A stretch of DNA of 19,272 nt from Candidatus Eiseniibacteriota bacterium (GTDB lineage Bacteria > Arandabacterota > Arandabacteria > JAGLYR01): contig JAGLYR010000164.1 in the NCBI GenBank assembly GCA_023132135.1, forward strand, positions 1 to 19,272, written 5' to 3'. Below are positions 15,494 to 19,272 of this stretch, in pieces. Under the pieces are notes generated by a model, which saw only the letters and a program-made list of their open reading frames with translations, searched no databases and was not told the DNA's origin. Each line of letters starts with the position of its first letter. Position 1 is the first letter of the stretch. Position numbers and translations under genes: made by a program.

Positions 15494-18400
15494 ATGCAAA
15501 AGGGCTATCTGCTGCTTCTGATGTGTACGGTTTCATTGCTGGTCGTGACCGGTGCGGGGTCCGCCCGCTGCGAATCCCTGGACCACGTTCTCACTTTCAA
15601 CATCGGGGACCTGGTTCTGTCGAGCTATGAGGGCTACGACAAAATCTACCTGGAGGGGGAGGATCTGACCTTCACTCCGGGCCGGCCGGAGCTCCCCGTC
15701 CACCTCTTCCATCTGGCCCTTCCGGGGCGGGCCATCGTTGAATCGGTAACTCTGGAAGAGGCCGACTGGACCGCCCTGCCAGGGACGTTCCGCGTGGCTC
15801 CCGTCCAACAACCTTTCATCCTCTCTTCGGATCTGCTGGGAATTCCCATGCCCGAGAGGGTGGATCCCGATCCGGCGGTCTACGACTCGGACGGGTGGTA
15901 TCCCGCCCAGGCCGTGAAACCGGCGGGCGACGGATTTATGGCCGGTGTTCACCTGGCGGCGCTGCGATTCTATCCGGTCCGGTACGCGCCCCTCTCGGGG
16001 ACCCTGGAGTTCTGCGAGCGTGCCGTGCTCCGGGTCCACTACAGTCTCTCGGGTTCGGGAGAGTTCCGCACGGCGACGCTTCTGGATCGTCAGGCGGTCC
16101 GGGGTCGTGCGATCGAGCTGGCGGCCAATGTCGACGCAGCGGACCAGATGGAAATCAAGGTGCTTCGGCCCTACCTCCCGGTCAAAGATGAGGAGGCCTA
16201 CGACTACCTTCTTGTCACGGCCGAGGAATTCGCTGCGGCTTTCCAGTCCCTCGTTCACTGGAAGACCCGGAAGGGTGTGAGGGTCAAGGTTGTGACGATG
16301 GAAGAAATCAACGTCGATTACGCGGGCATAGAGCCGGAGCAGGCCCGGGTGCGACAGTGCATCATCGACGCGTACGCAAACTGGGGGATCACGTGGGTGC
16401 TTCTGGGTGCGGACACGGATTGGGTGCCGTCCCGGACTACGTGGGCCATGAATGCCGGCATGGGACCGTTTAACAACACCATCCACGCAGACCTTTACTA
16501 TGCGGACCTGGACGGGGACTGGAACGCCAATGGCGAGGAACCCTACGGCGAGGTGGAAGACAACGTGGACCTCTACTCCGATGTCTACGTCGGACGCCTG
16601 CCGGTGCGGACGGCTATCCAGGCCGAGCGAGCGGCGAACAAGATCCTCACCTATGTGAAGAGTCCGCCCATGGATTACCAGACGGACATGTTGATGACGG
16701 GAGAGGTTCTATGGAACGATCCGTACACGGATTCGGGCGTCGGTCTGAACTGGATTGACGAAACCTGTGTCCCTCCCCGGTTCGATCCCGTCCAGAAGCT
16801 TTACGAATCTCTGGGGAATGAGTCGAAGACCGCGGTCATGAATGCTCTGAACCAGGGTAAGAACTTCTGGATCCACGACGGGCACGGCAACAGCAATTTG
16901 CTCTCCGTAGGCTACGGTGTTCTCTACACGACGGACATGCCCGATCTCGACACCGAACCGCGGTGGAGCATCGCGCATTCCATTGCGTGTCTTCCGGCTG
17001 CCTTCCAGACGGAAACATCGATTGCGGAGAAGTTCGTGCGGGTGCCCGGCGGCGGGATTGCCTTTGTCGGAAACAACAACTTCGGCTGGGGCAGTCCCGG
17101 AAACCCCAAGTTCGGGTACTCGGACCGGATGCAGCACAAGTTCTTCGACATCCTTTTCAACGACGGGGTGTACCGGCTGGGTGAAATCCTCGCTCTTGTG
17201 AAGGCGGAGTACGTGCCCCAGTCGCAGGGCGAGAACGTGTACCGGTGGCACCAGTATGAGATTACGCTCCTGGGCGAGCCCGAGTTCAGTGTGTGGACGC
17301 GGACGCCGGCCGTCCTGGATGTTGACCATGCGGATTCGCATCCCCTGGGGGACGGACCTTTCACGGTCACGGTCACGGAGGCCGGAGCGCCCCTCGAGGG
17401 CGCGCAGATCTGTGTGACGGATGACGCCGGAGTGTACGAACTCGCTTCCACCGGTCCTACCGGACAGGCCACCTTCATCGTGAACCCCGCTGCGCCCGGA
17501 TCGTTGTGGGTGACTGTAACCGCGCCGGATTTCCTGCCCTACGAAGGCGGCGCTGAGATTCTGCCCTCGGGACCCTACGCGGTGATCGAGAGCTTTGTCC
17601 TGGACGATTCAGAGAGGGGCAACGGGAATGGGCTCCTCAATAGCGGGGAGTCTGTGGATCTGGTCCTCACACTGTGCAACCCGGGAACGGAGACGGCGCT
17701 TTCGGTCTTCGGGCATCTCACCACCGGCGATCCGCTGGTCGAGATCACCGACGGCGCCGACGCGTTCGGCGACATCGGGTCCGGTCAAAGCGCGACATGT
17801 GAGGGGGAGTACGCCTTCGAGGTGGATCCCGGGGCCGGGTTCGGTCACGTCTGCCTGTTTGCCTTTGAGATCACGTCGGCCTCTGGTGGCCCGTGGCCGG
17901 GCGTCCTGGCCATTCCTGTCTCGGCTCCCGTCATCCGTGTCGCCTCCCTTGCGGTGGATGATGTGGTGGGGGGGGACGGCGATTTCAGGATCGAGCCGGG
18001 CGAATCCTTCGACCTTTTCAGTACGTTGCGGAATCTGGGGACGGATGTGGCTGCCGGAGCGGCTGTGGAGGCCTGGACGCCGAGTCCGCACGTGGAGTTC
18101 GGTGAGTCGACGTTTGTCCTGGGCGATGTACCGGCGGGAGAAAACCGGACGGCCGAGTTCTCGGCCACGGTAGCGCCCGGCTGCCCGGACCCTCATTTCC
18201 CGATGATCCACTTCCAGGTGACAACGACGAATGGGTACGCCTTCCAGGACAGTTCTCTCTTCGTGGTGGGGACCACCGGATTCGACGATGACATGGAGGG
18301 AGGAGATGCCAACTGGAGCCACGGCGGGACCAACGACCACTGGCACCTGACCTCGGACCGGACCCACTCCGGCGCTTCGGCCTGGTACTGTGGGCGGCCG

Positions 18401-19084
18401 GACACCGGCGCGTACGTGCCGGATATGAGTGCGCAGTTAGCCACGGCGTACGTGACCCTGGCGCCGGAACCCCGCGTGTCCATGTGGCTGTGGCACGACT
18501 TGCCGACCTATGGCAGCGACGGGCTCTATGTGATCGTCCATCAAGGGGCACTCTACGATACTCTTGATTTCATTGCGTCGGGGGGAGCCCTGGGGCTTCT
18601 CAACATCGGGAATGACTGGCTGGAGTTCACCTACGATCTGGGCTACTTCGGGTACCAGGCGGAGGACGAAGTGCAGCTGATGCTGTCCTTCTTCAGCGAC
18701 GGCAACGCGACGGTGGCCGAGGGGTTCTATGTGGATGACGTGGTGGTCACCGGTACCCTGCCCTCCGGGTTCACCGGTGTGTGGGGCGGGGATCACGACA
18801 CTGTGGTGAGCACGGGTGTGACGGGGAACCGGCCGAACCCCTTCAATCCCCGGACGGACATCCTCTTCCGGTTGGCCGTTGCCGGGCCTGTGGAACTTGC
18901 GATCTACGATATCTCGGGGCGGCGGGTTGCGACTCTGGTTCAACGAGCGATGGAACCCGGATGCCACTCTGCGGCATGGGATGGCACGGATTCCAATGGC
19001 GCACCCGTGGCCAGCGGTGTGTATTTTGCGCGACTCATCGCGCACGATCACGACAGCGCGCGGAAGATTGTATTGCTAAAATAG
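15494..19084 (+). CDS. Secreted gingipain-like cysteine protease (peptidase C25) with C-terminal sorting-type domain
   Basis: This 1196-residue exported protease has a signal peptide (residues 1 to about 23, MQKGYLLLLM to GAGSA) and a C25-type N-terminal prodomain (about 26-225). The catalytic region spans about 226-600. HDGHGN supplies H464 and SIACLPAAF supplies C499; their 35-residue spacing is close to the 33 in RgpB (H211/C244). YYADLDGDW and DVYVGRLPVRT are further C25 landmarks. Next come an Ig-like C25 C-terminal domain (about 604-700), two CARDB-like modules (about 705-810 and 812-920, each with GxxxxGES and NxGT), and a MAM/immune-inhibitor-A-like domain (about 925-1085). A FlgD-like sorting domain comes last (about 1107-1196: NRPNPFNPRTDILFRL, YDISGRRVATL, VASGVYFARL). 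AAGGAG upstream of ATG 15494 fixes the start; the extension to 15419 lacks an export signal. The stop codon lies in the left end of a small repeat element. Cleavage specificity is not readable. Confidence 0.93.
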   Translation: MQKGYLLLLMCTVSLLVVTGAGSARCESLDHVLTFNIGDLVLSSYEGYDKIYLEGEDLTFTPGRPELPVHLFHLALPGRAIVESVTLEEADWTALPGTFRVAPVQQPFILSSDLLGIPMPERVDPDPAVYDSDGWYPAQAVKPAGDGFMAGVHLAALRFYPVRYAPLSGTLEFCERAVLRVHYSLSGSGEFRTATLLDRQAVRGRAIELAANVDAADQMEIKVLRPYLPVKDEEAYDYLLVTAEEFAAAFQSLVHWKTRKGVRVKVVTMEEINVDYAGIEPEQARVRQCIIDAYANWGITWVLLGADTDWVPSRTTWAMNAGMGPFNNTIHADLYYADLDGDWNANGEEPYGEVEDNVDLYSDVYVGRLPVRTAIQAERAANKILTYVKSPPMDYQTDMLMTGEVLWNDPYTDSGVGLNWIDETCVPPRFDPVQKLYESLGNESKTAVMNALNQGKNFWIHDGHGNSNLLSVGYGVLYTTDMPDLDTEPRWSIAHSIACLPAAFQTETSIAEKFVRVPGGGIAFVGNNNFGWGSPGNPKFGYSDRMQHKFFDILFNDGVYRLGEILALVKAEYVPQSQGENVYRWHQYEITLLGEPEFSVWTRTPAVLDVDHADSHPLGDGPFTVTVTEAGAPLEGAQICVTDDAGVYELASTGPTGQATFIVNPAAPGSLWVTVTAPDFLPYEGGAEILPSGPYAVIESFVLDDSERGNGNGLLNSGESVDLVLTLCNPGTETALSVFGHLTTGDPLVEITDGADAFGDIGSGQSATCEGEYAFEVDPGAGFGHVCLFAFEITSASGGPWPGVLAIPVSAPVIRVASLAVDDVVGGDGDFRIEPGESFDLFSTLRNLGTDVAAGAAVEAWTPSPHVEFGESTFVLGDVPAGENRTAEFSATVAPGCPDPHFPMIHFQVTTTNGYAFQDSSLFVVGTTGFDDDMEGGDANWSHGGTNDHWHLTSDRTHSGASAWYCGRPDTGAYVPDMSAQLATAYVTLAPEPRVSMWLWHDLPTYGSDGLYVIVHQGALYDTLDFIASGGALGLLNIGNDWLEFTYDLGYFGYQAEDEVQLMLSFFSDGNATVAEGFYVDDVVVTGTLPSGFTGVWGGDHDTVVSTGVTGNRPNPFNPRTDILFRLAVAGPVELAIYDISGRRVATLVQRAMEPGCHSAAWDGTDSNGAPVASGVYFARLIAHDHDSARKIVLLK

Positions 19085-19263
19085 CCTGCGTTTCTCATCA
19101 GTTTTCGGCTGCGGTACCGGTGCATGGGCTGCGAGATCCCTTTTCCCTCGTTGTTTCCTCAGCGTAGCGTAAAGCTACGCTTCCGGGAGCGACTCAGTCC
19201 AAAGGCACCTCTCGCCACATGCCCCGGCCCCTCGCGACTAAAACTGATGAGAAACGCAGGCTA
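19082..19263. mobile_element. 182-bp inverted-repeat element (MITE-like), no coding capacity
   Basis: Perfect 24-bp inverted repeats end this element: TAGCCTGCGTTTCTCATCAG plus four T residues at 19082-19105, and the reverse complement at 19240-19263. About 134 bases separate them, with no open reading frame of note and a perfect 8-bp hairpin inside (19161-19181). Both ends begin with TA, consistent with a TA target duplication as in IS630/Tc1-mariner-type elements; this is an inference. The left TA plus G forms the stop codon TAG of the C25 gene. A long stem-loop acting as a bidirectional terminator, or a decayed repeat, are the alternatives. The window ends nine bases beyond it. Confidence 0.6.
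19161..19181. repeat. Perfect hairpin inside the inverted-repeat element
   Basis: AGCGTAGC (19161-19168), a GTAAA loop and GCTACGCT (19174-19181) form a perfect 8-bp stem. There is no T-run after it, so it is not a classical terminator on either strand. Confidence 0.6.
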
Positions 19264-19272
19264 AATGGGACT

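Follow-up and report, generated by a model that had tools for sequence, protein, structure and literature searches.

A palindromic mini-element with IS1380-type ends at the stop codon of a C25 protease gene in a Candidatus Eiseniibacteriota genome

RESULTS

The element at the end of the protease gene

We analyzed a stretch of 19 272 nt (the window), which is the complete contig C73 of a Candidatus Eiseniibacteriota genome. Its forward strand carries a gingipain-type C25 protease gene with a C-terminal FlgD-like/T9SS tail (15494–19084), which ends with the stop codon TAG (19082–19084). The protein matches the Peptidase_C25 profile, and the FlgD_ig/T9SS-type tail could be aligned up to profile position 70 of 72. 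Because this tail reaches almost to the end of its profile, the protein is not truncated by the element that follows. The first-pass annotation had proposed that the left TAG of this element is the in-frame stop of the gene and that the insertion left the protein unaltered; both hold, since the reading frame ends at 19084 and the protein is complete to its C-terminal tail.

The stop codon opens the left arm of the element (19082–19105, forward strand), which consists of the target dinucleotide TA followed by the terminal inverted repeat GCCTGCGTTTCTCATCAG. The interior (19106–19239) is non-coding and forms an imperfect palindrome with an inner stem (19161–19168 and 19174–19181), and the right arm (19240–19263, reverse strand) is an inverted copy of the left arm with TA at its end. 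An inverted-repeat search returned two arms of 24 nt each, 100% complementary and separated by 134 nt, as had been described beforehand. The 24-mer was found nowhere else in the window (0 expected from 200 shuffles). We observed that the entire 182 nt folds into a single long imperfect hairpin (z −9.4 as DNA and −10.7 as RNA). With only 134 nt of non-coding interior, the element carries no IS1380 DDE transposase, and a search of it with Rfam covariance models gave no match up to E = 1.

The contig stops 9 bases beyond the element, so that its right-hand neighbour gene is not visible. These 9 bases, AATGGGACT (19264–19272), are the beginning of a repeat module (reverse strand CTGAGCTGGTCAGAGCATNGTCCCNTT), which is found next to some ten further copies and also at places where the full end motif is missing. 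As the right half of the junction is this shared module, the ancestral empty site AAATAA-ATGGG suggested earlier cannot be read by joining the flanks. The module abuts many right ends of the element besides that in the window (L003 after 1682, L079 13017–13043, L103 5439–5465 and others), and the spacers between genes here resemble patchworks in which several repeats of this kind meet at varying positions.

Copies in this and other genomes

The element is a dispersed repeat. BLAST returned 53 matches to it in the 3.4-Mb genome, and its 20-nt end TAGCCTGCRTTTCTCAYCAG occurs 229 times with at most three mismatches, compared to 0 occurrences of a reversed-pattern control. Nine full-length copies of 181–182 bp could be aligned with ~95% identity per column, and the same 20-nt end fronts several kinds of interior. 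Being short, non-coding, flanked by terminal inverted repeats and present in many copies, the element has the features of a MITE. It is no single copy conserved in all relatives, as it was absent from all 59 other genomes compared, none of which belongs to the same genus or family. Among these 59 genomes the end motif (at most two mismatches) was found once in each of two class-mates and of three unrelated genomes, and seven times in the unrelated genome G042. Exact matches to the end motif occur in at least 114 stretches of GTDB genomes, where we estimate about 2 by chance; many of them are paired ends with 50–400 bp in between, and the matches listed include Gamma- and Deltaproteobacteria, Acidobacteria, Myxococcales, Planctomycetes, Nitrospira, Verrucomicrobia and other groups.

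Two side observations concern related copies. G042 contains paired elements of a similar kind, whose ends have the variant sequence TARCCCGCATTTCTCACGAG (C133:43705–43887, C71:5054–5315 and C119:137445–137627). In the genome under study, several near-identical left ends are broken off after 32–77 bases and joined to unrelated repeats, several of them on stop codons (L036 12827, L095 on the minus strand 11082 from its end, L104 9662, L065 and L101); these are either real mosaics or assembly joins.

The ends adjoin IS1380 transposase genes

A single strong IS1380 transposase gene is present in the genome (NF033539, 390.6 bits at a cut-off of 180; PF13701, 517 bits). Approximately 230 bp after its stop codon lies the end motif in inverted orientation, with 1 mismatch in 17 and followed by CTAA. 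A transposase gene with the same ends, as the first-pass annotation had anticipated, was thus found with one of its ends; a search for the left end revealed no intact one, and hence no complete autonomous partner in this genome. In this region (L258, G000:C139, 1790–4626) a two-ORF element lies directly upstream of the gene, at the expected left-end site; we take it to be IS3-like from our reading of its ORFs.

When the IS1380 protein of this genome was used as a query against motif-bearing genomes, a match was obtained in only 13 of 39. Two loci carry a complete IS1380 element with one large ORF: that in L232 (1273–3008, 1736 bp) has CTAG on both sides and ends diverged at 2–3 of 17 positions, and that in L233 (1347–3010, 1664 bp) has 16 of 17 positions at either end, with CTAG on the left and CTGA on the right. 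At four further loci (L234, L245, L252 and L253) single ends with a CTAG or TTAG flank adjoin partial IS1380 genes. Since the same ends adjoin IS1380 genes in the genome under study, in L232 and L233 and at the single-end loci, we judged them to be of IS1380 type, and the 20-nt motif is a terminal inverted repeat of the IS1380 family. The ends are common to autonomous elements, with one end at the IS1380 of this genome and complete elements in two other genomes, and a previously nameless repeat end that crosses phyla is now tied to IS1380 transposases. On C112 two ends enclose a span of 3 kb; it was also considered as a composite transposon and rejected, as the ORFs in it do not resemble transposases.

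Borders and target site

For 147 ends from other genomes we tabulated the four positions outside CCYGC and found C in 78% at −4, T in 93% at −3, A in 95% at −2 and G in 91% at −1. The borders follow the pattern N-TA before GCC on the left and TA-N after GGC on the right, mostly as CTAG, and most border pairs are CTAG/CTAG. Further pairs in other genomes, TTAG/TTAG (L156 and L184) and CTAA/CTAA (L167 and L174), fit a 4-bp duplication. In the genome under study G is nearly fixed at −1 and position −4 is variable, TTAG borders occur without a matching CTAA, and the window copy has the borders ATAG and CTAA, which fit a duplication of TA. Taken together, the borders suggest that the duplication covers at least the central TA, with 2 bp (TA) and 4 bp (CTAG) both in play. 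The proposals of a TA-centred insertion and of a dispersed, TA-bordered mini-transposon therefore stand, given the copy numbers above and TA at most ends, and copies without TA at both borders are not the pattern seen. A change from TAA to TAG had also been proposed for the protease gene; the stop was indeed retained, but the ancestral stop could have been either TAA or TAG.

Arms of the hairpin

Of the nine full-length copies, only that in the window has identical arms (24 of 24 positions); the arms of the remaining eight agree at 20–22 of 24. A C-to-T change is present on both arms of the window copy, and only there were the arms made identical. This looks like arm-to-arm copying, presumably by quasi-palindrome correction. 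Because such copying can make arms identical, their perfection is no sign of a recent insertion, contrary to what had been assumed. Across the copies we found five stem pairs changed on both sides, a number reached in 0 of 500 shuffles; they could stem from selection that maintains pairing or from copying of one arm onto the other. Neither the T-tract that follows the GC-rich stem of an intrinsic terminator nor a terminator-like site was found at the element, and the suggested terminator thus received no support.

Placement relative to genes

Genes were called with a home-made hexamer model in 101 contig stretches (1.04 Mb, 786 genes), covering ~31% of the genome and mostly picked because they carry ends. 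Among 127 elements, 43 begin on an in-frame stop codon, 74 are intergenic and 10 lie in predicted genes, while unoccupied CTAG sites of the same contigs are found at 94 stop codons, 200 intergenic and 128 coding positions. The split between stop codons and intergenic sites is similar (43:74 compared to 94:200, odds 1.24, p = 0.36), and the elements avoid coding sequence (odds 5.1, p = 5e-8). As the split equals that of unoccupied CTAG and coding sequence is avoided, most of the stop association follows from target choice and loss of harmful insertions, and elements sit on stop codons chiefly because targets are available there. That the element donates the stop codon is thus correct insofar as its TAG stands at the stop, but a special donation need not be assumed; such an appearance may be mere target availability. 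CTAG is depleted in the sampled contigs (483 observed, 1261 expected), and a simple rule emerges: this rare TA-centred site, where it lies beyond coding sequence, is often a TAG stop, at which insertion would be harmless.

TAG was the most frequent stop codon, used by 407 of 756 predicted genes (G000 contigs L035–L114 and L258–L277 and the window; 60% GC); TGA is usually the dominant stop in genomes of 60% GC. The 43 of 756 genes with an element at the stop are an overestimate for the whole genome, as the contigs were picked for ends. Ends at stop codons are mostly solo, with a partner within 420 bp in 6 of 26, and the gene after a stop-codon element is convergent in 10 of 26 cases, compared to 141 of 685 for all genes.

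The totals conceal one class of sites. In this genome G or A precedes TAG in 18 of 43 copies at stop codons, compared to 2 of 93 intergenic copies. Counted per strand-specific site, G/A-TAG is occupied at 18 of 245 stops and at 2 of 1099 intergenic sites (Fisher p = 4e-12), and C-TAG at 22 of 116 stops and 36 of 525 intergenic sites (p = 2e-4). A wholly target-driven association therefore describes the totals and fails at G/A-TAG. Other genomes show no such excess (base before TAG at stops: C 24, T 3, G 2 and A 1). The G/A-TAG copies are no more diverged than the remaining ones, for which reason drift of the last codon in old copies was rejected; capture of the stop codon by later read-through was discarded as well, since it would leave a C in front of TAG. 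Judged by our own reading of the C-termini, the host genes of these copies look intact. A clear partner end was found in none of the six G-TAG copies that have room for one. The window copy belongs to the A-TAG cases, yet it is of full length.

DISCUSSION

Our findings very probably reflect a MITE, a non-autonomous palindrome with IS1380-type ends whose insertion at YTAR/CTAG sites keeps stop codons. Judging from its ends, it is probably mobilized in trans by an IS1380 transposase, which would act on the inverted repeats and insert the element at YTAR-type sites, above all CTAG, with duplication of at least the central TA. If the target is the TAG (or TAA) stop of a gene, the junction would read an in-frame TAG, so that translation would still end there and the protein would be unchanged. 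We infer that insertion at stop codons is neutral; insertions within genes would be lost, and those at stops and between genes would persist. Several observations fit this reading less well: the IS1380 gene of this genome without a recognizable left end, the mixed border evidence on the size of the duplication, the mostly solo ends at stop codons, the over-occupied G/A-TAG stops and the IS1380 match in only 13 of 39 motif-bearing genomes.

Movement by a RAYT (Y1) transposase as a REPIN or REP sequence is highly improbable. Like REP/REPIN sequences, the element is short, palindromic, numerous and mostly extragenic, and there is one Y1_Tnp match in the genome; however, no end motif adjoins this Y1 gene (6 mismatches at best), whereas IS1380 transposases are adjoined by the same ends and both borders show TA/CTAG. 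We also regard it as unlikely that the element is a functional hairpin of RNA or DNA at the 3' end of genes, a REP/BIME-like terminator or mRNA stabilizer under selection beside stop codons. The very stable fold, the stem pairs changed on both sides, the per-site excess of stop-adjacent ends, G/A-TAG stops included, and the convergent neighbours would all suit such a role. Against it, most copies at stop codons have no right-hand partner end and cannot form the full hairpin, intergenic elements make up over half of the total, several of the both-side changes are seen in a single copy only and can be explained by copying between arms, and the T-tract or terminator-like site is absent.

The excess at G/A-TAG stops, a real puzzle if confirmed on a closed genome, could point to a further process in this lineage that seeks stop codons and acts alongside ordinary transposition. 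An IS1380-type end would then have become the standard 3' end of some genes beyond ordinary CTAG insertion, with selection or a process of its own putting TAG plus inverted repeat, often minus the other half, on native TAG stops, whichever base comes before. The occupancy of these sites and the similar age of their copies speak for this idea, which we nevertheless consider quite doubtful: no mechanism for it is known, other genomes show nothing of the kind, and the excess was counted with home-made gene calls in a sample of contigs largely picked for ends.

A literature search found no paper on IS1380 MITEs at stop codons or on this repeat family, and the letters GCATTTCTCACCAG were found in none of the papers searched. 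Known systems share some of its features. MITEPsy1 of Pseudomonas syringae is, in the excerpted account, likewise a mini-element with inverted repeats (18 nt), which inserts after CTAG or YTAA with target duplication; it has other ends, is thought to originate from ISPsy2 and not from an IS1380 element, and location at stop codons is not among the features described in that excerpt (PMC3189936). ISPsp10 of the IS5 family duplicates TA at TAA and has a stop codon in common with its target, but in that case it is the transposase gene that receives its stop from the target, whereas the junction in the window keeps that of the host gene (PMC4133298). The element also resembles the IS1380 family (ISEcp1 and ISPme1), as the terminal repeats are common to the IS1380 elements of this genome, L232 and L233; the window element differs in being palindromic, 182 bp long and without a transposase. 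ISPme1 and ISEcp1 are reported to move adjacent DNA through misread ends (PMC9330008), and such misreading may explain the varied right halves of the copies.
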